Shown: piece by piece, positions 8,109-28,957 of the stretch | How positions within the stretch are numbered: the first letter of the stretch is position 1 | Layout of the letters: every line of letters starts with the position of its first letter | Made by a program: the position numbers and the translations under genes | Notes under the pieces: model-generated | What the model saw: only the letters and a program-made list of their open reading frames with translations | Told to the model about the DNA's origin: nothing | Databases searched by the model: none | Origin: Desulfomonile tiedjei | Lineage (GTDB): Bacteria; Desulfobacterota; Desulfomonilia; Desulfomonilales; Desulfomonilaceae | Length of the DNA: 49,951 nucleotides | Assembly (NCBI GenBank): GCA_016218715.1 | Contig: JACRDG010000116.1 | Location: 1 to 49,951 of the forward strand | Direction: 5' to 3'

Positions 8109-8843
8109 ATGATTCGGTTTGAAGGTGTCCACAAGTGGTTCGGAAATCTCCATGTCCTGAACACCATCAACCTCCACGTGCGGCAAGGGGAAGTGGTGGT
8201 GATCTGCGGTCCGTCCGGTTCGGGCAAATCTACGCTTATCCGTACAATAAACCGGCTCGAACCCATCGATAAGGGGAAACTCATCGTAGACGGAATGCAT
8301 GTGTCCGATCAGAAAACGGACATTAACAGACTGCGCACCGAAATCGGCTTCGTTTTTCAACAATTCAACCTCTATCCACATCTGACCGTTCTCCGCAACA
8401 TCACCCTGGCCCCCATAAAGGTGCGTAAGGTTGGTAAGAAAGAAGCACAGGAGCAGGCCATGGCCCTTCTGGAACGGGTTGGGCTGTCTGAGAAAAGGGA
8501 TGCTTACCCATCGCAGCTATCGGGAGGAGAACAGCAACGGGTCGCCATCGCTCGAAGTCTGGCGATGAAGCCGCGAATCATGCTGTTCGATGAGCCTACG
8601 TCCGCCCTGGACCCGGAAATGATAGGCGAGGTGCTGGCGGTTATGAAAGACCTTGCCGAGTCAGGGATGACGATGTGTGTGGTCACTCATGAAATGGGGT
8701 TTGCCCGCGAGGTTGCGGACCGTATCGTCTTTATGGATCACGGCGTGATACTGGAGGAACGCGAGCCGGCAGCGTTCTTCACGTCTCCGCAACACGCGAG
8801 GGCACAGCAGTTTCTCAAACAGATCCTATCGCCGATGCACTGA
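8109..8843 (+). CDS. glnQ: polar amino acid ABC transporter, ATP-binding protein
   Basis: A 244-residue ATPase of the GlnQ/HisP/AapP family, which powers uptake of polar amino acids such as glutamine, glutamate or histidine. Walker [10 protein letters not shown] (34-42), Q-loop [10 protein letters not shown], signature LSGGEQQR (137-144), Walker [10 protein letters not shown] and the switch histidine in VVTHEMGFA are all present. It is the first gene of a four-gene importer cassette: binding protein 31 bp downstream, then two permeases. The symbol denotes family, not a proven substrate. Confidence 0.95.
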
Positions 8844-8874
8844 CGGCCTGACAGGCCGCAAGGGAGTGAAGAGA

Positions 8875-9693
8875 ATGACAAAGCTTGCGAACCTCCTTCT
8901 CGCAATCGTGATCCTCGCCGCACTTTCCACCGCGGCCATAGCCGCAGGGGACACCCTGGCCGAGATAAAGCGAAAAGGTGTTCTGGTCGCGGGGGTGAAG
9001 GATTCTCTCCCGCCTTTCGGTTATATCGACGAGCAAACCCGCCGGATTGTCGGGTACGATGTGGACTTTGCAAGGGCGATTGCCGATAAGCTCGGGGTGA
9101 AATTAGAACTCAAGCCTGTCTCGTCGGCGAGTCGCATACCGCAACTGATGGAACGGCATATCGACATCATCGTCGCCACCACGAGCAATACTCCACAGCG
9201 ACAGCAGCAGATCGATTTCAGCTACGCCTACTTCTTCACGGTGCAGAAGTTCCTGGTCAAGAAGGGGACTGTGAAGAGTCTCGCGGATCTCGAGGGAAAG
9301 AAAATCGGCACGGCCAAAGGGTCGGACTCCGAACAGAACGCGAGCGAAGCACTGCCTTCGGCCACGATACTATCGTTTGATGACTATCCCCAGGCCTTTC
9401 TGGCGCTTCAGCAAGGGAAGATCTTCGCGGTGACCACGGATGAGGCGATCCTCGCGGGAATTCGCCAGAAGGCTCCGAACAAGGAGAAGTTCGAGATTCC
9501 CGACTTCCAGATCTCCGACGAAGCCTACGGAATCGCCATGCGCAAGGGTGACAGCGCCTTGCGGGATTTCGTCAACAAGACACTCCTCGAAATGGAAGCG
9601 AGCGGTCAGGCAAAGGAGATCTTCGAGAAGTGGTTCGGTCCGCAGAGCGCAACTCCCATGAGCCGTGCGTTCTCGATCACAGCGGACAAGTAG
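8875..9693 (+). CDS. polar amino acid ABC transporter, periplasmic binding protein
   Basis: A 272-residue SBP family 3 protein. The start ATG 8875 has AAGGGAG eight bases upstream. A signal peptide (LANLLLAIVILAALSTAAIA) is followed by the domain opening LAEIKRKGVLVAGVKDSLPPFGYID, typical of glutamine/glutamate/cystine receptors, and later GYDVDFARAIADKLGV and QIDFSYAYF. The mature protein captures the amino acid in the periplasm and delivers it to the two permeases encoded next. Ligand specificity cannot be read from the sequence by eye. Confidence 0.95.
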   Translation: MTKLANLLLAIVILAALSTAAIAAGDTLAEIKRKGVLVAGVKDSLPPFGYIDEQTRRIVGYDVDFARAIADKLGVKLELKPVSSASRIPQLMERHIDIIVATTSNTPQRQQQIDFSYAYFFTVQKFLVKKGTVKSLADLEGKKIGTAKGSDSEQNASEALPSATILSFDDYPQAFLALQQGKIFAVTTDEAILAGIRQKAPNKEKFEIPDFQISDEAYGIAMRKGDSALRDFVNKTLLEMEASGQAKEIFEKWFGPQSATPMSRAFSITADK

Positions 9694-9796
9694 CGGCAGG
9701 ATTGTATCAAATCGTGCGGGCACCTGGCTCCGCTCATGGAACGACTAGCGAGCAGGCGGTCGACAAGTCCAAGACCATTCTGAGGACTATCAGGAA

Positions 9797-10504
9797 GTGT
9801 TTCACTACCAGTTCGACTGGGGGATCGTCACCTCCGGCAAGTATTTCGAATGGCTGCTGTCGGGATTGTATACCACGGTGCAACTCTCCGCGGTATCCAT
9901 CGTGCTCGCTTTCTTGCTCGGCCTTATCATCGCAATGATGCGGATGAGCCGTGTTTTGCCCGTGCGCTGGTTCGCGTACGGGTACCTGGAGTTTTTTCGC
10001 AATACGCCGCTCCTCGTGCAGATGTTCTTCTGGTACTTCGGGTCGTACAAGTTGTTGCCTGAAGCCGTAAACGATGTTCTGGCGCAGACGAATTTCGAAT
10101 TCACCGCTGCGGTCATCGCACTGACGATATACACCTCGGCATTCATTGCCGAAGATATCCGCTCCGGCGTGCGCTCCATCCCGAAAGAGCAGATGGAGGC
10201 CGCGCGCAGTTCGGGTTTTTCCTATATCCGGGCAATGCAGTACGTCGTTTTGCCTCAAGCCATACGCATCACCATCCCGCCGCTCATCAATCAATTCCTC
10301 AACTTGACGAAGAATTCGTCGCTTGCCATGACCATCGGTGTGGCGGAGCTGACCTATCAGGCGAGGCAGGTGGAGAGCTATACGTTCAGGGGATACGAAG
10401 CGTTCACCGCAGCGACGCTGGTCTACCTGGCGCTGTCGCTGTTTATCACTGGCCTGGTAAACTTGTATAACAAGATGGTTCTCATGAGGATGCGAGGCGA
10501 GTGA
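9797..10504 (+). CDS. polar amino acid ABC transporter, permease 1
   Basis: A 235-residue HisM/GlnP-type permease with a GTG start at 9797 (AGGA just upstream). Membrane helices alternate with loops, and the cytoplasmic EAA loop that docks the ATPase is present: EDIRSGVRSIPKEQMEAARSSG followed by VVLPQAIRITIPPLINQF. It starts 103 bp after the binding-protein gene and ends 1 bp before the second permease gene, suggesting translational coupling. It should form a heterodimer with the product of 10506-11207. Confidence 0.93.
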   Translation: MFHYQFDWGIVTSGKYFEWLLSGLYTTVQLSAVSIVLAFLLGLIIAMMRMSRVLPVRWFAYGYLEFFRNTPLLVQMFFWYFGSYKLLPEAVNDVLAQTNFEFTAAVIALTIYTSAFIAEDIRSGVRSIPKEQMEAARSSGFSYIRAMQYVVLPQAIRITIPPLINQFLNLTKNSSLAMTIGVAELTYQARQVESYTFRGYEAFTAATLVYLALSLFITGLVNLYNKMVLMRMRGE

Positions 10505-10505
10505 C

Positions 10506-11207
10506 ATGGATCCGTGGCTCGATTTTACCGTCATCCGAAACAACCTGACCTACTTCTTCATCGGAAGCTACCCTCACGGGAATCTCGGCGGGGTCGCGCT
10601 CACTCTCTACTTGGCCGTGACGTCGTGCGTGATCTCCTTTGTGGGCGGTCTGATATTGGGGCTCTTGAGCGTCTCCCGACACCGAGCGATAAGGTACCCA
10701 ACACTGGCGGTGATCAACACCGTCCGGGGCGTGCCCCTCCTGATGGTCATTTTCTGGATGTACTTCCTCCTGCCGTCGCTCCTCGGTCACCCCGTTCCCG
10801 AGAGTCGAACGGTGATCGCGGCCCTGGCCCTTTTCACGTCGGCGTACATGGCAGAGATCGTTCGCGCGGGCGTGGAGGGCATACCCAGGGGACAGACGGA
10901 AGCAGCGCTGGCGACGGGATTGCGCCCGTGGCAGGCGTTGGTTTACGTGGTTCTTCCCCAGGGGTTGCGCAACATGCTTCCGTCGTTCGTGAACCAGTTC
11001 GTCTCGCTTATCAAGGACACGTCGCTCGCATACATCGTGGGAGTGTCGGAGCTTACTCAGGTGGCCACTCAGGTGAATAATCGCAGCATGGTCCACCCGA
11101 CGGAGATCTTTTTCTTCATCGCGGCGGTCTATTTCATCATCTGTTTCACGTTCACGAGCATTTCTCGCCGGCTGGAGAGTCGCCTGGCTTGGCGCAAATC
11201 GATCTGA
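10506..11207 (+). CDS. polar amino acid ABC transporter, permease 2
   Basis: A 233-residue permease of the same family as its upstream neighbour, with the EAA loop EIVRAGVEGIPRGQTEAALATG and VVLPQGLRNMLPSFVNQF. The membrane part includes SCVISFVGGLILGLLS and an NTVRGVPLLMVIFWMYFLLP helix. Its ATG follows the stop of permease 1 after one base. With the ATPase and binding protein it completes an importer; nothing appears missing. Confidence 0.93.
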   Translation: MDPWLDFTVIRNNLTYFFIGSYPHGNLGGVALTLYLAVTSCVISFVGGLILGLLSVSRHRAIRYPTLAVINTVRGVPLLMVIFWMYFLLPSLLGHPVPESRTVIAALALFTSAYMAEIVRAGVEGIPRGQTEAALATGLRPWQALVYVVLPQGLRNMLPSFVNQFVSLIKDTSLAYIVGVSELTQVATQVNNRSMVHPTEIFFFIAAVYFIICFTFTSISRRLESRLAWRKSI

Positions 11208-17184: not shown

Positions 17185-17196
17185 GGATTGGGAATC

Positions 17197-17907
17197 ATGC
17201 CTGAGGTGAAATCTAAATACAGTCCACAGGAGATCCTGCGAGCGATCGAAGAACTCGGCAAGGAAGAGCCGTGGTTCCATTGTATAGACCTGGGTGATGG
17301 GCTACGAACCATGCAGGAACCATTGCCGCACCTTCAAAACTTGTGGGATGGTATTGCCGCCCATATCACCCACGACCTGTCGGGAAAGTCGGTTCTCGAC
17401 ATCGGGTGCAATGCAGGTTTTTTCAGCGTTCAAGCAAAGAAGCACCATGCAGACTACGTGCTGGGGATAGACCTGTCTGACGGCTTCCTCAAACAGGCCG
17501 AATTCGTCAAGAGCGTCCTCGGTCTGGAGATTGACTACCGGAAGATGAGTGTGTTTGACGTCCCGAAACTTGGCAGAACCTTTGATATCGTCTTCTGTCT
17601 CGGCGTGATCTATCATTGTGCCAATCCCTTCGAGGCCGCACGATGCGTGGAGTCGATCACGGAAAGCATGGCTATCGTCGAGTCGGCTGCGGTGGATTAC
17701 CAAACGGTAGCGGACAGGCCTCTGTGGGAATTCGTCTTTTCCGGATATGAAGCTCCATTGAGTGCCGGCGAAAAAGACGAGAGGTGCTACAACTGGTGGT
17801 TCCCCAACAAGGCGGGACTCCGGACGCTGTTTCAAGCTGCCGGTTTTCCAAGAGTGGAACCCGTTTATGAGGTGGAGGATCGCGTTACCATAGCATGCTA
17901 TAAGTGA
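17197..17907 (+). CDS. SAM-dependent methyltransferase, CmoB/DUF1698-like
   Basis: A 236-residue class I methyltransferase. The SAM-binding motif I is VLDIGCNAGFFSVQA (66-80), followed by GIDLSDGFLKQA (acidic residue for ribose), and FDIVFCLGVIYHC (motif IV region). The combination of PWFHCIDLG near the N-terminus, the GCNAGFFS motif and GVIYH resembles CmoB, the tRNA U34 carboxymethyltransferase, but the protein is much shorter than CmoB and may act on a small molecule. Start ATG 17197 is preferred over TTG 17188. It is monocistronic, and a hairpin lies downstream at 17935-17968. Confidence 0.8.
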   Translation: MPEVKSKYSPQEILRAIEELGKEEPWFHCIDLGDGLRTMQEPLPHLQNLWDGIAAHITHDLSGKSVLDIGCNAGFFSVQAKKHHADYVLGIDLSDGFLKQAEFVKSVLGLEIDYRKMSVFDVPKLGRTFDIVFCLGVIYHCANPFEAARCVESITESMAIVESAAVDYQTVADRPLWEFVFSGYEAPLSAGEKDERCYNWWFPNKAGLRTLFQAAGFPRVEPVYEVEDRVTIACYK

Positions 17908-18015: not shown

Positions 18016-19515
18016 TCACAGGAAATTGAGACTGAACTGGTTCCACCGAGGCTTCAGCCGATGCCCAATGGCTGAATAAATATTGGTATCCTTCGTGTAT
18101 ATCCTGCCAATCCCCTTCATTCCAACCTTCAGGCCTGGAACGCCGTCACCCTCGATGGTGGCCCGCACCCGATAGACGTTCCCAAGACGTTGCAGGACCT
18201 CCGCCCTGGGCGCAACCTCCTGGACTACAATCGGGCACGCCTGCCCCGGTTCGCTGTTCAGATAGAGGCTGCCGTTCTGACCGGTCTGGATCTGGGCTAC
18301 ATTTTCCTCGGAAACCCACATGTCCACACACAAATCTCCCGGAACTGCAATCTCGCAAAAGGATTCGCCCGGTTTAAACTTCTTTCCGACCATCGTTTCG
18401 ATTTGCTTGGTCACCACAACCCCGGACGCGGGAGCAACGACATTGAGGAATTGCTTCTGCCATTCCAGGTATTCCAGCTCTGCCAACACGGACTTTCTCT
18501 TGAGTTCGACTAGTTGACTTTCCGCGAGCTTGGTCAAATCCTGAGACGAGGACTTCCTGAGCAGAACCATCTCGTTGTTCAGCATCTCCGCCTGTCGTTG
18601 AGCCGTATTGATCCTGTGGTCGAGCTCGGTGGCGTCCAACGTGGCAATCACCTGGCCTCGTTGGACATGCATCCCTTCGGTGACGTGAATCTTGTCGACC
18701 AATCCTTCCATCCTACAAAAGGCCAGGTGCCGGTCCTTCGGGACGATTTCCGCTTCCCCGCCGACGGGGTACGCAAAGGGGAGTAAGAAAAGCAACCCGG
18801 CAATCAGGACAAGAACCCCGGCCACGATGCCGAGAGTGCGCGGTCTTGTGCCGAGCACGCGTCTCTGGTGCCAGCCCGGGACCCGCGTGAGCGATGCCAG
18901 GTTCGGGTTTTCGTGTACCATCCATTTCTCGGCCAGCGCTGCCGCCAGGAAAGGAGCCAATTTGATGAGAGCCATCAACGTCGGAGACGTGGGGGTTTTC
19001 CCGTCGAGATACTCCAGTAGCAAATGACCCAATGTTTCATTGTTATGATTGAGCGGGACACAAAAGAAGCCGGTAGAGCCGGAATATCCCATGAACGCGG
19101 CCACTCCATCTTTCATCGCCTCGGTAAGGCTAGCGTCGGACACCTTGGCAAGGTCAGCCGGGTTTGAGACGTACAAAGGTTTTTCCAGTCCTTTGAGATG
19201 GGAGGCAAGGGTGGTGACTTCTTCGTGAATCTTCGGGGTGGTCTCAAGGACGGCCTGATTACCGGCTGCGACGAACGAGGATTCTCCCTGCATGTGGGTG
19301 ACCAGAAAGCATCTGTCGAATTCGATCAGGGAGCGAATATCATTCGTCACCAAGAAATACAGCTCTTCCAGAGTCTTCGCTTCCACTGCTCTTCGCGACA
19401 ATTCCAGGCTCAACACGATAAGTCGTTCGCGATCATCGGGGGTCGGAGCAGGACGGGGCCCGGTGGCCCCGATGGAGACCGCTTCGGATTGCCCACTACG
19501 TAGTTCCAAAGCCAT
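18016..19515 (-). CDS. GAF-domain / HlyD membrane-fusion hybrid
   Basis: A 499-residue protein. Residues ~30-200 form a cytoplasmic GAF-like sensor (TNDIRSLIEFDRCFLV; GFFCVPLNHNNETLGHLLLEYLDG). One membrane helix follows at ~227-249 (IVAGVLVLIAGLLFLLPFAYP). The rest is an HlyD-type periplasmic adaptor: lipoyl half-motifs GLVDKIHVTEGMHVQRGQVIATLDATEL and FLNVVAPASGVVVTKQI, separated by a short helical hairpin, then a beta-barrel part ending near GLKVGMKGIG. Start ATG 19515 has GAGGG seven bases upstream. It lies 12 bp after the M50/HlyD fusion gene and is surely co-transcribed. A cytoplasmic GAF on a secretion adaptor suggests that export is gated by an intracellular ligand (inference). Confidence 0.85.
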   Translation of the reverse strand: MALELRSGQSEAVSIGATGPRPAPTPDDRERLIVLSLELSRRAVEAKTLEELYFLVTNDIRSLIEFDRCFLVTHMQGESSFVAAGNQAVLETTPKIHEEVTTLASHLKGLEKPLYVSNPADLAKVSDASLTEAMKDGVAAFMGYSGSTGFFCVPLNHNNETLGHLLLEYLDGKTPTSPTLMALIKLAPFLAAALAEKWMVHENPNLASLTRVPGWHQRRVLGTRPRTLGIVAGVLVLIAGLLFLLPFAYPVGGEAEIVPKDRHLAFCRMEGLVDKIHVTEGMHVQRGQVIATLDATELDHRINTAQRQAEMLNNEMVLLRKSSSQDLTKLAESQLVELKRKSVLAELEYLEWQKQFLNVVAPASGVVVTKQIETMVGKKFKPGESFCEIAVPGDLCVDMWVSEENVAQIQTGQNGSLYLNSEPGQACPIVVQEVAPRAEVLQRLGNVYRVRATIEGDGVPGLKVGMKGIGRIYTKDTNIYSAIGHRLKPRWNQFSLNFL

Positions 19516-19527
19516 GTTTTCCCTCTA

Positions 19528-21642
19528 TTACAGTGAGTATTCTTTGTTAAAGGTTTGTATCAGCCTGTTGGTCACACGCGTCAACAGGCTCCGTGGGGGT
19601 GAGTCGACGATCAGTTTCCCGGACATCCCGAGCGGAAGTGTTTCGGCACGGTCGGTCGGCTTCACCGAACAGCGGTAGAAGTCTTCCAGAGGAACCTCCG
19701 AGGATTCCGGCCCCTTAGGCTCGGTGGCTATTTCTCCGCCATAACGGCTCGAAAACGGAGAATCCTTCAAGTCTTGTTCGCTGTACGGTCTGATCTCACT
19801 GATTTCACCGGTAACCATCTTTCCTCCATTCAGAGGAAACCACATCCGGACCACCTGTCCGGTGCGAACCTTGTGAAGGTCGGCCGAGGGGACGAGCGCC
19901 TGTACGAGACAATCACTCGGGGCTTCCACCTCACCCACGACCACCCCTTCTCCCGGTTGAAATCCTTCTTGGAGCCGGAAATCGAGCCGAGTGATTACGC
20001 CGTCGAAGGGGGCTACAATCCCTCCCTGAGCGATGGCAAGATCCCGTGCGACACGTTTGATTTGATCCTCGACACGCCGGATCTCTATAGCCTTGCCCGC
20101 GGCTCTATCTCTCCTGCGCTCGTCCAGCAGAAGGAACCTGAGATCTTTCTGGAGCCTCTCACGCTCGATCTTCCTTGCGGCCAGCTCGAGCTTCAGCTGA
20201 GAGCTGTCCAGGGTGAACAGCAGGTCGCCGCATGCTACCTGTGCGCCTTCCCGGATAAAGACCTGGTCCACGCAGCTTTGGAGCGGCACGGTCAGCTTTT
20301 GACTTTGGGCTGAAGCGGCTGTGGCCGGATAAATGGACCTGCTCGCAACAGGCACGCTCAATGCCGCAATGACCAGAGCCACCAGCAGCCCAAATCCCAG
20401 AAGGCCGGCTGGCTGGAGATGCAGCTCCGCACGCTGAGCATAGATTGTCTTGATCCCCCGGATCAGGGGACGCACGATGAAGAGAGCAAAGGCCACGACC
20501 GCGAGTAAGATGCCCAGCGTCTTGTCAAAGCGAAAGTAGACGCCCGACACGATTCCGACATAGAGAAAAATGCGATAGAGAAACGCACTGACCCCGTAAA
20601 CCGCAAATATGGCGACCTCTCGCCGCGTTGTCGCCGGGTTGGCCACCTGCGACATGCCGAGCACTCTGTTAAGGAACAGGTACTTGCAGTAGGCCATGGA
20701 ACGCGTCGACAAATTGGGCAGCTTGAGCAGGTCCATCAGGACGAAATAGCCGTCGAAACGCATCAGCGGGTTTCCGTTGAAGAGCACGGTTGAAATGAAC
20801 GAGACAGCCATGAGATAAAACGCGAGTGAATTTACAATGCCCGGACTGGTAAAGTACCATACATACGCGGATATGATCGCAACAGCACCTTCTACAAGTA
20901 TCCCAGCGGCGCTAATGGCAATACGCTGCTTTCGATCCGCCAACTGCCATGCATCGGTCGTATTGCAGAAAAGACAGGGAAAGAAAATGAGGAACGCAAC
21001 GCCCATCTGAGGGACGTGAATCCCGTAGTGCTTGGCAACGTATGCGTGTGCGAACTCATGAACCAGTTTGGCGAGGGCTAGCGTTGCCCAAAGACACAGA
21101 AGGTTGTGCATGTTGAAAAAAAACAGGTACTCGGTCTGGATTTTGGGGATGCCCGATATGATACAGTAGATGGCTCCCGGCAACGCGAGCGCCAGCAGCA
21201 TGACGGTCCACATGTTGCCTATGAGCCGAGCCATCCAGAGCGTTCGTTCGAGGAACTTGTCCGGATTCAGTAGAGGAATGAAGAGGAAGTACACGCTGGA
21301 GAACATCTTCGCCTTTTTCGCGGCCTCGGTCTGTTTCTTGAGAAGTGTCTGGTACTCCGCTGTGCCGTACTTCGTGCCGAGCACGAGTCCCAATTGCGCG
21401 GCCTTCCCGACGATGGCAGTAGCTGCTTCAGGAGTATAGTAATAGCCCGCTGCTCCGAGCGCTTCGCGCGCCTCCTCCAGCGAGCGATTGCCATCGAGAG
21501 CCTTCAGGAGCCGGTGCTCGTACACTGACAGATAGAAGTATTTCCCGGACAAGGGGTCCTTCAGGACGACTGTGTCCCGGTGCGCGATGTCGTCGTACGC
21601 GTAGGTTTCGAGATCGACGCGAAATTTGACCTGTTTTTCCAT
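19528..21642 (-). CDS. PqqD-like / M50 zinc metalloprotease / HlyD fusion protein
   Basis: A 704-residue multidomain protein. Residues ~15-95 resemble a PqqD-like winged helix (DPLSGKYFYLSVYEHRLLKALD, then EEAREAL), the type that binds leader peptides in RiPP pathways. Residues ~115-440 hold many membrane helices with an intact M50 site: HEFAH (195-199) and the third ligand in NPLMRFDGYF (D297). Residues ~445-690 are an HlyD-like lipoyl/hairpin adaptor (VPLQSCVDQVFIREGAQVACGDLLFTLD; GGIVAPFDGVITRLDF). Related proteins are annotated as putative peptide zinc metalloproteases (YydH-like). It likely binds, cleaves and passes a peptide outward. A sigma-54 promoter lies 41 bp upstream. Confidence 0.85.
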   Translation of the reverse strand: MEKQVKFRVDLETYAYDDIAHRDTVVLKDPLSGKYFYLSVYEHRLLKALDGNRSLEEAREALGAAGYYYTPEAATAIVGKAAQLGLVLGTKYGTAEYQTLLKKQTEAAKKAKMFSSVYFLFIPLLNPDKFLERTLWMARLIGNMWTVMLLALALPGAIYCIISGIPKIQTEYLFFFNMHNLLCLWATLALAKLVHEFAHAYVAKHYGIHVPQMGVAFLIFFPCLFCNTTDAWQLADRKQRIAISAAGILVEGAVAIISAYVWYFTSPGIVNSLAFYLMAVSFISTVLFNGNPLMRFDGYFVLMDLLKLPNLSTRSMAYCKYLFLNRVLGMSQVANPATTRREVAIFAVYGVSAFLYRIFLYVGIVSGVYFRFDKTLGILLAVVAFALFIVRPLIRGIKTIYAQRAELHLQPAGLLGFGLLVALVIAALSVPVASRSIYPATAASAQSQKLTVPLQSCVDQVFIREGAQVACGDLLFTLDSSQLKLELAARKIERERLQKDLRFLLLDERRRDRAAGKAIEIRRVEDQIKRVARDLAIAQGGIVAPFDGVITRLDFRLQEGFQPGEGVVVGEVEAPSDCLVQALVPSADLHKVRTGQVVRMWFPLNGGKMVTGEISEIRPYSEQDLKDSPFSSRYGGEIATEPKGPESSEVPLEDFYRCSVKPTDRAETLPLGMSGKLIVDSPPRSLLTRVTNRLIQTFNKEYSL

Positions 21643-21682
21643 GGCATCCCCGAGAAAATGGCTGAGTCAACACGAAATCTAT

Positions 21683-21698
21683 TGCAAACCGTGTGCCA
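21683..21698 (-). promoter_or_regulatory. sigma-54 (RpoN) promoter
   Basis: Read on the minus strand, 21698 to 21683 is TGGCAC-ACGGT-TTGCA, matching the -24/-12 consensus TGGCAC-N5-TTGCW. It lies 41 bp upstream of the M50/HlyD start, inside the 181-bp gap after the TolC-like gene. Transcription would start near 21671. An enhancer-binding activator would be required. Confidence 0.7.
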
Positions 21699-21823
21699 TC
21701 CTCGGCCGCTGAGTGTCAAAAACCCACTCTCCTATCACAAGTAATCCCAGGTCGGGGAATCAATTTCTTACGTGAGCAGAACAAGCAGGGGTGCAGTCGG
21801 TGGGAGGACCGGAATCGGAAGGC

Positions 21824-23320
21824 CTAGTCGGCAGGGATCGGCTCGCGGTAGTTTGTTCCCATGGCACTCTCGAGCACGGCCGAGGCGGCATTTGCTTCAG
21901 CCATGGCTTTCAGGCGGTTGATCTTGCCTTCGAGCAGGTCGCCTCGCGCTTCCTCCACGGAGAGTTTGTCGAGATCCTGGACGGAGAGCCGCTTTTCCAG
22001 GCTATCGTACAACCGGCCGAAACTCGCCAACGACGCTTGCGCGGCCCTCACCTCCTCGAGACTGTCGACGAACTTTATGGCTGACTGCCGGACCTGAGAG
22101 GTGATCGCCAGGGCCACAGCGCCCATCTCGCGTTCGGTCTTGGCGGCAGTCGTCCTGGCAGCCCCCAATTCCTGGAGGTTGGCTACCCAGTCGATAAGGT
22201 CGAAATAGATAGAGACACCCACCTCTTTCCATTCCTTATCATACATGAACTTGTCCTTGTCCCGGGTGTGCCTCCAGAAGCCGCTCGTTCTGGGAAAGGT
22301 CTTGACAATGGTGCGCCGGACATCGTTGGAAGCATTGAGATGAGTCAGGCCCGCTTCAAAGGCTTCAGGCCTGTTCTGCACGGCAGTCATCTCCAGCGTG
22401 CAGATCTGGGGCGCACATGGAGGCACCAACAGCACCCCTGAGACGCAAAAACCCCCGTCAATGCAGGCATCGGGGGAGATTGCCATCGCGGTTGCAAGGA
22501 GGTCCCGCTGGGCGGCCATGTCCGCTTGCAGTCTCGCGAACAGTCTCGTGGCTCGTATCGTCTTTTCCTCGCCTCGATGGACGTCCTCTATGCGAGCCAG
22601 CTTCTCTTTCAGCAATTCCTCGAACTTGCCTCTGGTGCCCTTCCGAATCGCCATGAGACCCTGGGCCAGCGGCAGGCATTCCTGCAGGGCCAAAAGCCGG
22701 TAAAACGCTCCGTCAACCGCTTCCAGAATCTTCTGCGAGGTCCTGACCCTCCGGTAGTAGGCCTTCAGGCGGTCGTTGCCGCTGCTCTTGCTCACATAAT
22801 AGGCCAAAGCGGCATCGGTAGCGCTCCACCTCGCTTCCATGATCTGCACCCACGTGCTACGTTCGTGCCCTGTGGAGAAGCTGGTGACTCCGGTCCCGGG
22901 CGTCAGAGGGTTCGGTGCACTCCCTTCAAGTCCCAACACTTCGCTGTACGAGTAGCGGATGTTGTCGCGCTGGCTCAAATCCCCGGAGTACAGGAAATGC
23001 GGCAGCATTCTCGTCATATTGCTGTAGCGAATGGCCCGCTGAGTCAGCTCGTCCAGGCGGCCCGCCTGCAATTCGAGACTGTTGCTCAGTGCCATCGCTC
23101 GGCAATCCTCCAACGTGAGGACTCGTTTGCCGGTTGCCGCGGAGACGGGCTTCACGCGATGGTTCATCAAGGCATCGGCCGCGTGAGCGTGCACCAGCTG
23201 CCGGTGGTTGTCAGCGGAGAAAGCGACCATGCTGGGAAATCGGCATGAACTCAGCACCATCAAGACCAGACACAAGATCAAGAGGAACGCCGATCTCTCT
23301 GCCGCACGGGATTGCGCCAT
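21824..23320 (-). CDS. TolC-like outer-membrane efflux lipoprotein
   Basis: A 498-residue protein starting ATG 23320. The signal peptide ends in a lipobox (MVLSSC, Cys 26), so it should be lipid-anchored like OprM/CusC. The body is largely helical with two related halves, as in the outer-membrane efflux family: LTLEDCRAMALSNSLELQAGRLDE near the front, long coiled stretches, and KLSVEEARGDLLEGKINRLKAMAEANAASAVLESAMG near the end. It would form the outer-membrane duct for the adaptors encoded around it. It starts 12 bp after the first HlyD gene. Four Cys cluster in CIDGGFCVSGVLLVPPCAPQIC, which is unusual for a TolC protein and may form disulfides. Confidence 0.85.
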   Translation of the reverse strand: MAQSRAAERSAFLLILCLVLMVLSSCRFPSMVAFSADNHRQLVHAHAADALMNHRVKPVSAATGKRVLTLEDCRAMALSNSLELQAGRLDELTQRAIRYSNMTRMLPHFLYSGDLSQRDNIRYSYSEVLGLEGSAPNPLTPGTGVTSFSTGHERSTWVQIMEARWSATDAALAYYVSKSSGNDRLKAYYRRVRTSQKILEAVDGAFYRLLALQECLPLAQGLMAIRKGTRGKFEELLKEKLARIEDVHRGEEKTIRATRLFARLQADMAAQRDLLATAMAISPDACIDGGFCVSGVLLVPPCAPQICTLEMTAVQNRPEAFEAGLTHLNASNDVRRTIVKTFPRTSGFWRHTRDKDKFMYDKEWKEVGVSIYFDLIDWVANLQELGAARTTAAKTEREMGAVALAITSQVRQSAIKFVDSLEEVRAAQASLASFGRLYDSLEKRLSVQDLDKLSVEEARGDLLEGKINRLKAMAEANAASAVLESAMGTNYREPIPAD

Positions 23321-23332
23321 AAGACAGGATCC

Positions 23333-24361
23333 TTATTGCAACGACTCCAGCGAGCCACTCATTCCAATTTCCAAAGGGTGCTGCGCATTGTCGATCAAGA
23401 CAAAGACCTTTCGGGTGTCGGTCTTGGGATCGATGATCGGCTCCACCCGTTCCACCCGGCCGCGAAATTGCCGGCCCGATGCTTCCACGAAGACCGCTTC
23501 TTTCCCTTTGGAGAAATTTCCCATAAAGGTCTCGGGGACGTAGGCGACAGCGAACACTTTCGCATTGTCGACCAAGGTAAAGAGCTTATCGAGAGGGGCC
23601 ACGGCCTCATGAGGTTCTTTGTGCCGCGCAGCGAGATACCCGGTGAAGGGCGCCCTGACCTGGCAAGCTTCCACATCGAGTTCGGCTTGTTCGAGCGCTG
23701 TTTCAGCCTCTTTCACCTTGTGCTCGGCAACTTCCGCCTCCGACTCCGCGCGGCCAAGCTCTTGCTCGCTGCTCACGTCCATCGCAAAGAGCCTTGCCTT
23801 GATCTCCTTGTCTTTTCTGGCTCTATCCAATGCCACGCGCAGGGCTCGTACGTTTTCCTTGGCTCTCTTCACCACGAGGCGAAAACGTTTTGCCGAAATC
23901 TCAGCGACCACTTGCCCGTGATGCACGAGATCGCCCAACTCGAAATAGAACTCATCGACCCGCCCGCCAACCTCACCGGCAACAGCCGCGGCACGAAACG
24001 GATTGATGATCACCGCCTCAATCCTACGAGATTCGGCTTCCGTGGCGAACTCGGATCGTTTCTCGTCAAGGACCGACTCCAACTCTCCCCTATGGGAAGG
24101 GAGCGCAGGTGAGCGAAGGCCGGCTCCTGAAGGAGCTTCATCCTGGCCTGTCACTGCAGGGGCGGCGCCAGAAGGAGATTGTACCCTATGTTGGTCGCGA
24201 CGAGACGCGTGCTCCGGCCGGTCGACTTCGTCGAGTGGCTTCGGGGCAGGCTGTTGTGTCACGGCAGGGGATTCGCTTGGATCGGCACCGGCCTGGTGCA
24301 GGACTTGCAGCAGGGAAAACAAAACAAACAACGATATCAGGGCAAACTTCTTTAACCCCAT
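23333..24361 (-). CDS. HlyD/RND-type periplasmic adaptor (membrane fusion protein)
   Basis: A 342-residue protein starting ATG 24361. An N-terminal signal or anchor (FALISLFVLFSLLQVLHQAGA) precedes a ~70-residue Pro/Ser/Ala-rich linker. The adaptor body comprises a lipoyl half-motif (INPFRAAAVAGEVGGRVDEFYFELGDLVHHGQVVAEI), a coiled-coil hairpin (~150-215), the second lipoyl half (VRAPFTGYLAARHKEPHEAV), and a beta-barrel (RGRVERVEPIIDPKTDTRKVFVLID, typical of RND adaptors). It is the first gene of the four-gene export operon. No RND or ABC pump gene is present nearby, so its inner-membrane partner is either the M50 fusion or encoded elsewhere. Confidence 0.88.
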   Translation of the reverse strand: MGLKKFALISLFVLFSLLQVLHQAGADPSESPAVTQQPAPKPLDEVDRPEHASRRDQHRVQSPSGAAPAVTGQDEAPSGAGLRSPALPSHRGELESVLDEKRSEFATEAESRRIEAVIINPFRAAAVAGEVGGRVDEFYFELGDLVHHGQVVAEISAKRFRLVVKRAKENVRALRVALDRARKDKEIKARLFAMDVSSEQELGRAESEAEVAEHKVKEAETALEQAELDVEACQVRAPFTGYLAARHKEPHEAVAPLDKLFTLVDNAKVFAVAYVPETFMGNFSKGKEAVFVEASGRQFRGRVERVEPIIDPKTDTRKVFVLIDNAQHPLEIGMSGSLESLQ

Positions 24362-24905: not shown

Positions 24906-25121
24906 ATGGACGTAATGGCGGCCATCGGCTTGATAGTGTTGGCAGTCCTGGTCATCGGAAGTGCTCTGTTGCTCAGGAACAGGAGCGCAGGACGAATGGA
25001 GTCATCGACAGGAGAAGGCTCGTTCGCGTTTAAGGACTGCTATGAGCTGTGCGGACATGAGCCCGGCAAAGGATCCTCCGGAGCGTGCAACACCATGTGC
25101 TCTTCCTATGGAGGCGCGTGA
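24906..25121 (+). CDS. small membrane-anchored protein with twin CX3C motif
   Basis: A 71-residue protein, ATG 24906, with AAAGGAG 12 bases upstream (rather long spacing). Residues 4-23 form one hydrophobic helix (AAIGLIVLAVLVIGSALLL) followed by positive residues, so the C-terminus may face either side. The C-terminal part holds four cysteines as C45-x3-C49-x11-C61-x3-C65, ending SSYGGA. A twin CX3C pattern is typical of disulfide-stabilised helical hairpins. I recognise no family. It lies divergent to the peptide-export operon and could be its substrate, an accessory factor or unrelated; substrate status is inference. Confidence 0.6.
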   Translation: MDVMAAIGLIVLAVLVIGSALLLRNRSAGRMESSTGEGSFAFKDCYELCGHEPGKGSSGACNTMCSSYGGA

Positions 25122-26562: not shown

Positions 26563-26967
26563 TCAACCCGTTGTCTTTCCGGTGCCCGCTGCCTGCTTGA
26601 TTTTCTCTACGAGATCGTCGAAGTCGCACGGTTTGAGCAAATAGTCGTAAGCGCCGTACTGGATTCCGTCACGGGCAGCCTCTTCCGATCCATGGCCGGT
26701 CAGCATGATCACCGCCATTTTCGGAACCAGGGCCTTGAAGATCTTAAGCACCTCGATGCCGTCGATATCTTCCATTTTCAGATCGAGCACCGCGACGTCG
26801 AACTCCGCCTTGCGCACCGCTTGCACGCCCTGGATACCGCTGAAGGCCGTGCTTACTGCAAAATTCCTCTTCGTCAGTCGCTTCTCGAGAATCCTGACGT
26901 ACGCTTCTTCGTCATCGACGAGCAAGACCTTGATACGATCGGCTTTGTTGGATTCACTGGCGCTCAT
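26563..26967 (-). CDS. receiver-only response regulator 1
   Basis: A 134-residue CheY-like protein; ATG 26967 is chosen because residues upstream are not receiver-like. It has the acidic pair VDDEE, phospho-acceptor D62 in VAVLDLKMEDIDG, T90 in IMLTGHGS and K112 in LLKPCD. The usual KMPGMDG loop is altered to KMEDIDG. There is no output domain. It is the last gene of a long minus-strand signalling/transport cluster and follows the sensor kinase gene after 201 bp. It is probably a phosphorylation target of that kinase. Confidence 0.92.
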   Translation of the reverse strand: MSASESNKADRIKVLLVDDEEAYVRILEKRLTKRNFAVSTAFSGIQGVQAVRKAEFDVAVLDLKMEDIDGIEVLKIFKALVPKMAVIMLTGHGSEEAARDGIQYGAYDYLLKPCDFDDLVEKIKQAAGTGKTTG

Positions 26968-27050
26968 GGTGCACTCTCGTTCGTCAAAACTTGCACAGTC
27001 GCGACTTAGTGGTCCCCTCCGCAAATTCAGCCACGCATTTCGGGGAGCAT

Positions 27051-27111
27051 GGTTGGACAGGAATCTCGCCTGTCGTTTCATCAGGGACAGGAAAGAACCA
27101 TGTCCCGCCAA
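27051..27111 (-). repeat. dispersed extragenic repeat, copy 1
   Basis: Read on the minus strand it opens TTGGCGGGA and ends near GACAGGCGAGATTCCTGTCC. The second copy at 29224-29302 shows the same order (TTGGCGGGA..., GGCAAGATGCCGGCCCCAC), and part of it recurs at 38415-38456. It lies between the kinase and receiver genes. Confidence 0.5.
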
Positions 27112-27168
27112 TAGAGCAGGCCGCGGCGTTAAACGGAAACCGCGTGCCGCTAGAATGTGCGACCGCAC

Positions 27169-28881
27169 TTAGCATATGCCTTCCTGAGCTGTTGGCGTCT
27201 TGGGAAGCGGAATCCGAAGATTAAACGTCGTGCCGATCCCTACGGCGCTGTTGACACTGATCTGGCCGCCCATCCTCGTGATGATGCCGTAACAGATCGA
27301 CAAACCGAGGCCGGTCCCCTTGCCTACCGGCTTCGTGGTAAAAAAGGGATCGAAGATCCTCGGCAAGTACATTTCCGGGATTCCGGGGCCGTCGTCCGCC
27401 ACCTGCAGAAGTACGAAGTTTCCTTCCGTTCTCGTCTTGACCTCGACTTTTCCTCCTCTGCTATCGATGGCATCAAGGCTATTGTTGATCAGGTTCATCA
27501 AGACCTGCTGCAATTCCGTGGGGGAAACATGTACCAGCGGGAGCTGCGGGTCCAAATCAACGTTGATCTTGATCGTCGCGTACCGGGCTCGCTGCTGACA
27601 CAGATCGACCACCTCGCCAACCAGTTCGTTCAGTTGAACGTCCTTTGGTCGAGGATCGGTCTTCCGGGCGAAACTGAGCAGTTTGTGGGTGATCTCTTTA
27701 CAGCGGATACCCTGCGTCCTGATCTGCCGGAGCGATTGCTTGAACTCCTCCAGGTTCTTGGACTCCTGCAGTTCTTCTTCACCCAGCAGATCTTGCATCC
27801 AACCTGCTTCTTCCACCATGACCGCGACGGGATTGTTGATCTCGTGCGCGATCCCTGCAGCCAACTCGCCCAGAGACGCCAACTTGCCCGCTTCGATGAC
27901 GCGCTCGTTCATCATCTGTTTTTCCTGGTCCGCTTGCATGATGCGTCGCACGACCCTCTTGGACAAGAGGACCGCAACCACAACCACGCCGAGAACCCCC
28001 AGTACGAAAATCGCCATGGAAATTCGCCGCGCCGTATACAGGGCTAAATAGGCGTCCCCCGCGGTTTGCTGGAAGGCCAACAGCCAGTGCCCGTCCTTCA
28101 ATCGGGACACGACGTACACGTAATCATCCCCGGCGGCGTTGGCTTTCTCGACGAGAGACACGTCATCGCCTCCCTTGGAGGGCGCGGTCAGGAAACTCAC
28201 ATATGGCTCTCTGGACGGATCGATCTCCGTACGCGGTTTAGTTTGGAACTCTCCTTTACTATTGAGAATAAACGCAAATCCCGTCGATCCGATGCGTATG
28301 CTCTCCACGAGCGAATTGAACGCGTCAAAATCGACCGTGGCCCTCAATATCCACTTGGCCCCTCCGTGCTCGCGTTGCACGGTAACGATAAAATGGGGCA
28401 ATCCCCGCAATCCCGGGAACACGTCACTGATATGCGTCTGATTCTGCATCGCCTCCCGGAACCACGCGGCCTGGGAGTAGTCGGCTTCCTGCAACCTGAA
28501 TGGACCTGCATAGGCAATCTGAATCCCGTGATCGTTCACGACTCCGAGATCGACGAACGCTCGGCCGTACACGTCCTGGAGGACCTTTAGCCGATCCTTC
28601 AGGAATACCTCATCGCTGAGCTGGTCAAACGTATAGGAGTCGGCCACAACGCGAATATCGGCAAGTTTCTCATTCAAGAAAGTGTCAATGTTCTGCCGGT
28701 GTTTCTTTATCAAGACCTTCAGGTGGTCCGCCACCTTTTCCTGATACGACACCTGGAAAAAGTAGCGAATCGTCCCCGATATCAACAGCAGTGGTATCAG
28801 GGACACCACTACCATGATGATAACGATCCGCCGCGTCAGCGATCGATAGTACGTTTCGTTTTCACCATTCTGATCGCTCAT
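27169..28881 (-). CDS. membrane sensor histidine kinase with Cache-like sensor
   Basis: A 570-residue protein; ATG 28881 follows AGAGG. It has a membrane helix at ~19-41, a periplasmic double-Cache-like sensor at ~42-285 ([50 protein letters not shown]), and a second helix at ~287-307. The kinase core follows: H-box [16 protein letters not shown] (phospho-His 346), N-box [14 protein letters not shown]1 VADDGPGIP and G2 [14 protein letters not shown]. It has no attached receiver, so it should phosphorylate free ones, several of which lie on either side. Cache domains commonly bind small carboxylates or amino acids; here the ligand may be what the SLC13-type carriers move (inference). Confidence 0.93.
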
Positions 28882-28957
28882 AGCAAACCTCTGAGGGATC
28901 GTCCCAAAATAACCGTGTCTATTATGCCTCCCAATAAGGACGCGCGCAATCCCCATC

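Follow-up and report, generated by a model that had tools for sequence, protein, structure and literature searches.

A candidate exporter of large, motif-bearing surface proteins built on an RRE-M50-HlyD fusion in Desulfomonile tiedjei

What does an operon export when it encodes periplasmic adaptors and an outer membrane channel, and no ATP-binding cassette (ABC) or resistance-nodulation-division (RND) pump of its own? The question is raised by four genes at 18016-24361, minus strand, of the window, the whole stretch of 49,951 nucleotides analyzed here (contig JACRDG010000116.1 of the Desulfomonile tiedjei assembly GCA_016218715.1, which comprises 5.55 Mb in 124 contigs). A first-pass annotation had read these genes as an HlyD adaptor, a TolC-like lipoprotein, a fusion of PqqD-like, M50 protease and HlyD parts, and a GAF-HlyD fusion, and had proposed that they recognize, cut and export a small leader-bearing peptide. 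The four-gene operon was found as described; the proposed cargo was not borne out. We consider it likely, with a probability of about 0.72, that the operon is dedicated to exporting large, often giant surface proteins rich in repeats, and a large surface protein is a more likely cargo than a peptide.

The argument starts from gene 3 (19528..21642, minus strand), which encodes the 704-residue fusion of a RiPP recognition element (RRE; RiPP, ribosomally synthesized and post-translationally modified peptide) of the PqqD type, an M50 core and an HlyD part. In Pfam, Peptidase_M50 (E 6.6e-9) and HlyD_D23 (E 3.9e-10) were matched within this one protein. The PqqD model of Pfam gave no match to the window fusion, and a direct, sub-threshold match was seen in one distant fusion (L073, E 0.0082). 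A profile made from 67 related N-terminal domains, searched against the PDB, ranked TfuB1 (E 3.6e-4), TbiB1 (0.0081) and PqqD (0.0098) first. An AlphaFold2 model of residues 1-104, computed with 67 related N-termini, reached a predicted local distance difference test (pLDDT) score of 84.4 and displayed three strands followed by three helices. The first seven Foldseek matches of this model were all RRE or PqqD structures (best E 1.6e-3), and VIA-align gave Z scores of 9.9 for TigE, 9.7 for TfuB1 (root-mean-square deviation (rmsd) 3.0, 82 aligned), 9.2 for TbiB1 and 8.8 for MccB. The three-stranded sheet and three helices of the winged-helix PqqD/RRE fold were thus found at residues 1-89 (21376..21642, minus strand), and profile, model and structure matches support the PqqD-like N-terminus of the first-pass annotation, which had named structure prediction as the check.

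The M50 membrane core occupies residues 136-430 (20353..21237, minus strand), as judged from Peptidase_M50, the modeled helices and a match to an RseP orthologue. The protease site claimed earlier is intact: the zinc-binding motif HEFAH lies at residues 195-199 (21046..21060, minus strand) and NPLMRFDGYF at residues 291-300 (20743..20772, minus strand), and H195, E196, H199, N291, P292, L293, F296, D297, G298 and Y299 are invariant in 48 wide relatives from several phyla. The HExxH residues and most of NPL..FDGY are also invariant in 20 close relatives. Gene 3 therefore has the features of an M50 site-2 protease, HExxH and a distal NPxxxxDG-type motif in membrane helices. Residues 432-684 (19591..20349, minus strand), with a helical hairpin at 481-540, form a MacA/EmrA/MexA-like adaptor part according to Pfam and the model. 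The full fusion model (pLDDT 86.6, predicted template modeling score 0.70) matched MacA over residues 410-691 with a Z score of 15.8, EmrA with 14.4 and the RseP orthologue 7w6y over residues 176-309 with 10.6 (rmsd 3.2, 132 aligned), which supports modeling of the C-terminus as a MacA/EmrA-type adaptor. The nearest named relatives of the gene are from Desulfomonilaceae. Counting that of the window, its genome holds five full-length fusions, of which the four others are 53-58% identical; the operon is therefore far from a chance arrangement.

By sequence, the RRE-M50 part of the fusion is nearest to the daptide leader protease MpaP (NF041824), which a passage of the daptide paper describes as an RRE-dependent intramembrane peptidase that removes the leader. 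The NF041824 match of gene 3 scored 161.3 bits over residues 31-390, and four other fusions scored 142-200 bits, all under the 300-bit equivalog cut-off. As in MpaP, an RRE is joined to an M50 core, and the alignment spans profile positions 24-363 of 379; unlike MpaP, whose cargo is a small peptide, the fusion continues into an HlyD part, before which the 379-position profile stops. The YydH/LiaK epipeptide protease (NF058609), YydH being presumably the protein also called EpeP, has the M50 core in common with the fusion. It differs in that it scored only 38.5 bits against a cut-off of 225, over residues 165-312 of gene 3, and not over the RRE or HlyD parts.

Evidence on the cargo came from mapping the genes of the window and of 20 related stretches; open reading frames (ORFs) were picked by simple scoring or length, such that some genes may be wrong. 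Very large ORFs were present near many fusions, and the four that were scanned had cadherin, Ig, tandem-95, ELWxxDGT or DUF4347 domains. Large ORFs with their start present have a common N-terminal stretch like LEQLEERIVLDAA. Across relatives this motif reads LExR-h-h-[FL]-[DS]-[AG], and its Desulfomonilaceae form is LEERIVLDA. Among 20 loci, a number that includes the window, 14 have a large motif or repeat protein in reach, eight by regular expression and six by repeat-like make-up; L030, one of these six, shows MEDRIVLDAA. DUF4347 was considered as the common cargo element and rejected: it is present in five of the seven cargo proteins scanned (L028, L029, L032, L105 and L128) and missing from L037 and L130, so the motif is their common part. 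The literature passages on DUF4347 that we consulted had no bearing on export.

We then searched 41 genomes with an exact codon pattern for E[ED]RIVLDA and with the backwards pattern as a control. The pattern gave 20 matches in seven genomes, all of them fusion-bearing, as compared to none for the control, and all 20 matches are N-terminal in their ORF. When only fusions with the M50 part were counted (11 genomes; three more that matched by the HlyD part alone do not count as fusion-bearing), 7 of the 11 fusion-bearing genomes had the motif, as against none of the 30 others. The genome of the window encodes ten motif proteins, all outside the window. In genome G000, motif proteins are paired approximately 4-14 kb apart (C65:70550/74660, C4:432021/437373 and C101:95060/109227), which suggests local duplication. 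By eye, short imperfect repeats of about 30-45 residues are seen at the C-terminal end of large ORFs in L034, L039, L042, L043 and L045; in such Desulfomonilaceae cargo candidates they possibly serve in anchoring or as a second signal.

The association extends to other phyla. A scan of genome contigs found at least 544 relatives of the fusion, and the best 80 loci were kept; they come from Planctomycetota, Verrucomicrobiota, Alpha-, Beta- and Gammaproteobacteria, Nitrospirota, Elusimicrobia and others. In these loci, mapped with a similarly simple choice of ORFs, a strict motif, LE.R.[LMV][LMF][DSA][AG] within the first 90 residues, was found in 17 of 94 non-machinery ORFs of at least 700 residues, as compared to 0.005 expected, in 1 of 531 shorter ORFs and in none of 243 machinery ORFs; past residue 90 it occurred once in 340,958 residues. 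Examples are LEPRVLFDG, LEERVLLSA, LESRLMFDA and LEKRMMLDA. The motif resembles LEPR-XLL (NF012209), an N-terminal motif of very large proteins with the spacing LExRxhLxA, and unlike it the Desulfomonilaceae LEERIVLDA scores under the cut-off (L029 reached 13.1 bits versus a cut-off of 17, and L028, L032 and L037 gave no match at E <= 0.1). NF012209 matches over the cut-off were present in 14 of 19 genomes reached via fusion loci versus 1 of 14 controls. Two LEPR-XLL matches lie in open frames that are very large for bacteria, of 14,158 codons in G049 (the genome of L121; C1:3701230) and 8,687 codons in G056 (the genome of L096; C1:478437). A published LEPR-XLL passage concerns a Vibrio protein of approximately 8000 residues, and neither HlyD nor TolC is named in the text of that paper.

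The motif N-termini do not look like Sec signals. By a simple hydrophobicity measure over a 15-residue window, which is not a trained predictor, a Sec-like hydrophobic stretch was absent from 56 of 57 of them; the remaining one reached 1.8 well upstream of the motif, at what is probably an over-extended start. The same measure gave 2.5 for the N-terminus of the window's HlyD protein and 2.9 for that of its OEP protein.

Co-occurrence was also counted in the family of the Nitrospira genome G050, sampled as 98 genomes and searched with a model of the 23-residue N-terminal motif. Fusions entered the count from 48% identity to the query upward; more distant ones (22-29%), part of them in further genomes, did not. 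The motif was found in 36 of 37 fusion-bearing genomes and in none of the 61 others (Fisher p 4.6e-26, not corrected for kinship). A motif ORF on the same strand lies no more than 2 kb downstream of 36 of the 39 fusion genes, and 47 of the 52 motif frames span at least 500 codons, 34 of them at least 1000. Pectobacterium offers no contrast, since the fusion is in all 25 genomes sampled. In one of these, G174, a fusion gene at C1:4172556-4174644 appears to be broken by several stops, and a second copy is intact.

If the operon is an exporter, which component drives it? A related locus was described by Kamneva, Poudel and Ward in 2015 (PMC4452313), with genes for M50-HlyD, GAF-HlyD, HlyD and sometimes OEP proteins beside a secondary SecA_DEAD gene. 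These authors noted the missing ABC transporter and proposed M50 as a possible pore and SecA as the ATPase; a term search of the main text of PMC4452313 found no PqqD, LEPR, cadherin or adhesin, and we saw no cargo named there. Like the 2015 locus, the window has an M50 and HlyD fusion, with relatives in the same phyla, and a GAF-HlyD protein (its GAF match being under the cut-off), a separate HlyD and an OEP alongside. The 2015 locus was found through its SecA paralogue; in contrast, the genome of the window has a single SecA_DEAD match (448 bits, in an 889-residue frame on another contig) and its fusion falls in a separate clade. On this single match, a secondary SecA was rejected as the missing pump of the window operon. 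A secondary SecA was likewise rejected for the sampled Desulfomonilia, in which 38 of 41 genomes have one SecA_DEAD match, two have none and G017 has two.

Among the best 80 loci the commonest neighbors of the fusion are GAF-HlyD (58), HlyD (56) and OEP (24) genes, with a second OEP group in 10 (one member scanned); a search for M50-HlyD fusions next to GAF-HlyD and TolC had been a check proposed in the first-pass annotation. In 17 of these loci there is a neighbor of approximately 670 residues, and the four members of this group that were scanned are SecA paralogues. A tree of 81 fusions, made by a quick method with Shimodaira-Hasegawa-like approximate likelihood ratio test (SH-aLRT) support only and some long branches, has three deep branches. 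Branch I (30 rows) contains Proteobacteria and Nitrospirota, has no SecA in the locus and has a D-type motif in the 11 rows where one was seen. Branch II (11 rows) contains Desulfomonilaceae, including the window, and has no SecA and an LDA-type motif where seen; some of its rows are labeled D without a motif having been seen in each. Branch III (40 rows) holds the tree's 18 SecA-bearing loci and has S/A-type motifs in the eight rows where one was seen. Of 13 loci with D at motif position 8, none has SecA; of nine with S or A there, five do (Fisher p 0.005, the loci being related). A strict rule that an S-type motif means SecA fails, as only five of the nine S/A loci have it.

A second long SecA match was found in 2 of 12 genomes reached via clade-I loci, namely G054 and G058, which have LLS-type leaders as well, and in 5 of 7 others; G044 is taken to be incomplete because it has no SecA match at all. 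In G054, the first fusion is SecA-less, and 99 bp beyond its match lies an FDAA-type motif. The second, distant fusion adjoins the second SecA, and LEPR-XLL proteins (LEPRLLLSA) lie a few kb off on the same contig. This arrangement, from one genome only, fits two matched pairs of machine and leader.

An ABC pump belonging to the operon was also considered and rejected. The neighbor scan covered the 14 largest clusters of the best 80 loci, and the only possible transporter was an ABC ATPase cluster (c6, three members scanned) in nine loci, 2.3-9.5 kb from the fusion and never adjoining it. Homologous operons therefore do not always bring an ABC pump, a pattern that would have spoken against the first-pass proposal; RND pumps were not searched separately. 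A further cluster (c10, one member scanned), in four loci, is an ABC protein with the ABC_tran_Xtn linker, and single members of c8, c11, c12 and c13 were a PQQ/BamB-like propeller, a flavin mononucleotide (FMN) dehydrogenase, a PD40 protein and a phosphoenolpyruvate (PEP) mutase, respectively. One member of c9, plus a neighbor, gave no Pfam match. Within the operon, no ABC or RND family was found among the four proteins by Pfam, the remaining window ORFs and the genome not having all been scanned for such pumps. The earlier statement that there is no pump thus stands for the four genes and is qualified by the SecA paralogue in many loci of one of the three clades.

The other operon genes would supply the parts of a path across the envelope. 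Gene 1 (23333..24361, minus strand) encodes an HlyD-family periplasmic adaptor of 342 residues (HlyD_D23 E 6e-18 in Pfam; RND_mfp 148 bits in NCBIfam) with a hydrophobic, Sec-type N-terminal signal. Gene 2 (21824..23320, minus strand) encodes a TolC/OEP-type outer membrane channel protein of 498 residues (OEP E 1e-10 in Pfam), in which LSSC reads as lipobox-like. Gene 4 (18016..19515, minus strand) encodes 499 residues annotated earlier as GAF plus HlyD; the HlyD part was confirmed (HlyD_D23 E 9.8e-16 in Pfam) and the GAF part is weak (E 0.024, 15.6 bits versus a Pfam cut-off of 22.4). Relatives of gene 4 are in 19 of the 21 mapped stretches, the window included. HlyD_D23/HlyD_3 matches are thus found in genes 1, 3 and 4, and the gaps between genes 1, 2, 3 and 4 are 12, 181 and 12 bp. 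A methyltransferase gene at 17188-17907 flanks the operon, and an ABC importer of the amino-acid type, made up of a solute-binding protein, a pair of permeases and an ATPase, lies approximately 7 kb away at 8109-11207. Scans for promoters and terminators gave counts at or below those of shuffled sequences. Type I secretion systems export giant repeat adhesins in one step, and their classical signals are C-terminal. The window operon resembles the type I system HlyBD-TolC in its HlyD adaptor and TolC-type channel, and differs from it in having no ABC exporter and an N-terminal candidate signal.

From these parts we propose the following path. At its N-terminus the cargo would carry a tag without a Sec signal, in which LEERIVLDA[AS] comes after a short basic stretch and which may act as its export signal. 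The cytoplasmic RRE domain of the fusion, whose fold is modeled above, would bind this leader as RREs bind RiPP leaders; we infer binding from that analogy. The M50 core would probably clip the leader during or after passage, at a site suggested by analogy with MpaP. As the operon encodes no other large membrane part, this core is also the first candidate for the inner membrane passage. The route through the periplasm and outer membrane could be assembled from the HlyD parts of the fusion and of the GAF-HlyD protein, the separate adaptor and the TolC-type lipoprotein. In one clade the SecA paralogue may drive the inner membrane step; the clade of the window has no SecA. The window operon, which encodes machinery only, would serve at least one of the ten motif proteins whose genes lie elsewhere in the genome. 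The chances are about even that these systems form a separate Gram-negative export class, in which an RRE reads the leader of a giant protein, recognition, leader removal and passage are united in one polypeptide of RRE, protease and adaptor, and a SecA paralogue drives one branch and some other source the two others.

Several observations weigh against this reading. Six of the 20 Desulfomonilaceae loci, the window among them, have no repeat protein or motif ORF, one contig being only 4.7 kb; in the 50 kb of the window itself, a single match with three mismatches is at chance level. Four of the 11 fusion-bearing Desulfomonilaceae genomes have no exact motif, all four being 81-86% complete, and 4 of the 20 motif ORFs stop approximately 300-500 residues past the motif, so not every cargo is giant. 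Among the large neighbors in the best 80 loci, 77 of 94 have no strict motif; some are cut at the start and many are unrelated. The Desulfomonilaceae motif stays under the curated LEPR-XLL cut-off, and at E <= 1 NF012209 matches 18 of 19 fusion-bearing genomes and also 7 of 14 controls, for which reason we regard this short model as noisy at that level. A motif of nine residues is no proof of binding or cleavage, and for the clade of the window no energy source was identified.

Would another function explain the same loci? RiPP pathways contain both RRE and M50 domains, the nearest named relatives of the fusion are the daptide and epipeptide proteases, and EpeP is thought, in a passage of a review, to cut and export its epipeptide, all of which would suit a small, RiPP-like peptide that is recognized, cut and exported. 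The loci argue otherwise. Conserved small ORFs beside the fusions, which the first-pass annotation had proposed as a check, were sought among 587 small ORFs that lie in the vicinity of 20 fusions but not within large genes, and no family was found in more than three loci. The sole family in three loci was DUF3467; two other matches link two loci each and look like chance or non-coding repeats. In the window, an ORF of 71 residues (24906-25121, plus strand), next to the operon and divergent from it, has a membrane helix at its N-terminus and is rich in Cys at its end (MDVMAAIG...CSSYGGA). Its one relative (44%) in 17 other genomes lies on a contig apart from that genome's fusions; with no link to fusions, it was rejected as cargo. 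Since the large motif proteins track the fusion far better, we consider a peptide cargo very unlikely. The DUF3467 protein, which lies beside the fusion at L032:6887-7228, L040:8461-8841 and L042:2487-2804 and belongs to a cluster (c7, three members scanned) in six of the best 80 loci, may be an accessory factor.

It is also conceivable that the role of the fusion is confined to processing, retaining or releasing the motif proteins at the membrane, and that they use a different route across the inner membrane. The usual substrates of M50 proteases are membrane-bound, the SecA-less clades have no known energy source, and the adaptor part of the fusion could dock on TolC without being a pump. 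With 56 of 57 N-termini free of a Sec-like stretch, that other route would be unusual as well, and the HlyD and TolC parts speak for transport; we judge this explanation unlikely. A signaling device, in which GAF and M50 regulate surface-protein genes and co-occurrence reflects shared regulation, seems to us highly unlikely. GAF domains are sensors of small ligands, regulated intramembrane proteolysis is among the tasks of M50 proteases, and a response regulator and a histidine kinase are encoded upstream of the operon at 26563-28956. A sensory role for the GAF protein was suggested in the text of Kamneva et al. (PMC4452313). However, the GAF match is under its cut-off, the conserved element of the cargo is an N-terminal protein motif, and HlyD and OEP genes are the frequent partners of the fusion.

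Export of large motif proteins, the reading that we prefer, would assign a likely role and a likely cargo to a module that has been known, since 2015, as a gene neighborhood only; judging by the open-access papers searched, three elements appear to be new: its cargo, its RRE and the branches without SecA. It would also supply a likely exporter for the LEPR-XLL giant proteins, for which none was found in print in the open-access literature. To our knowledge, leader reading by PqqD/RRE domains has so far been known from RiPP biosynthesis. If the proposal is true, RRE leader recognition reaches beyond small natural products to protein secretion, and the motif predicts export candidates in environmental genomes, Nitrospira and Pectobacterium included.

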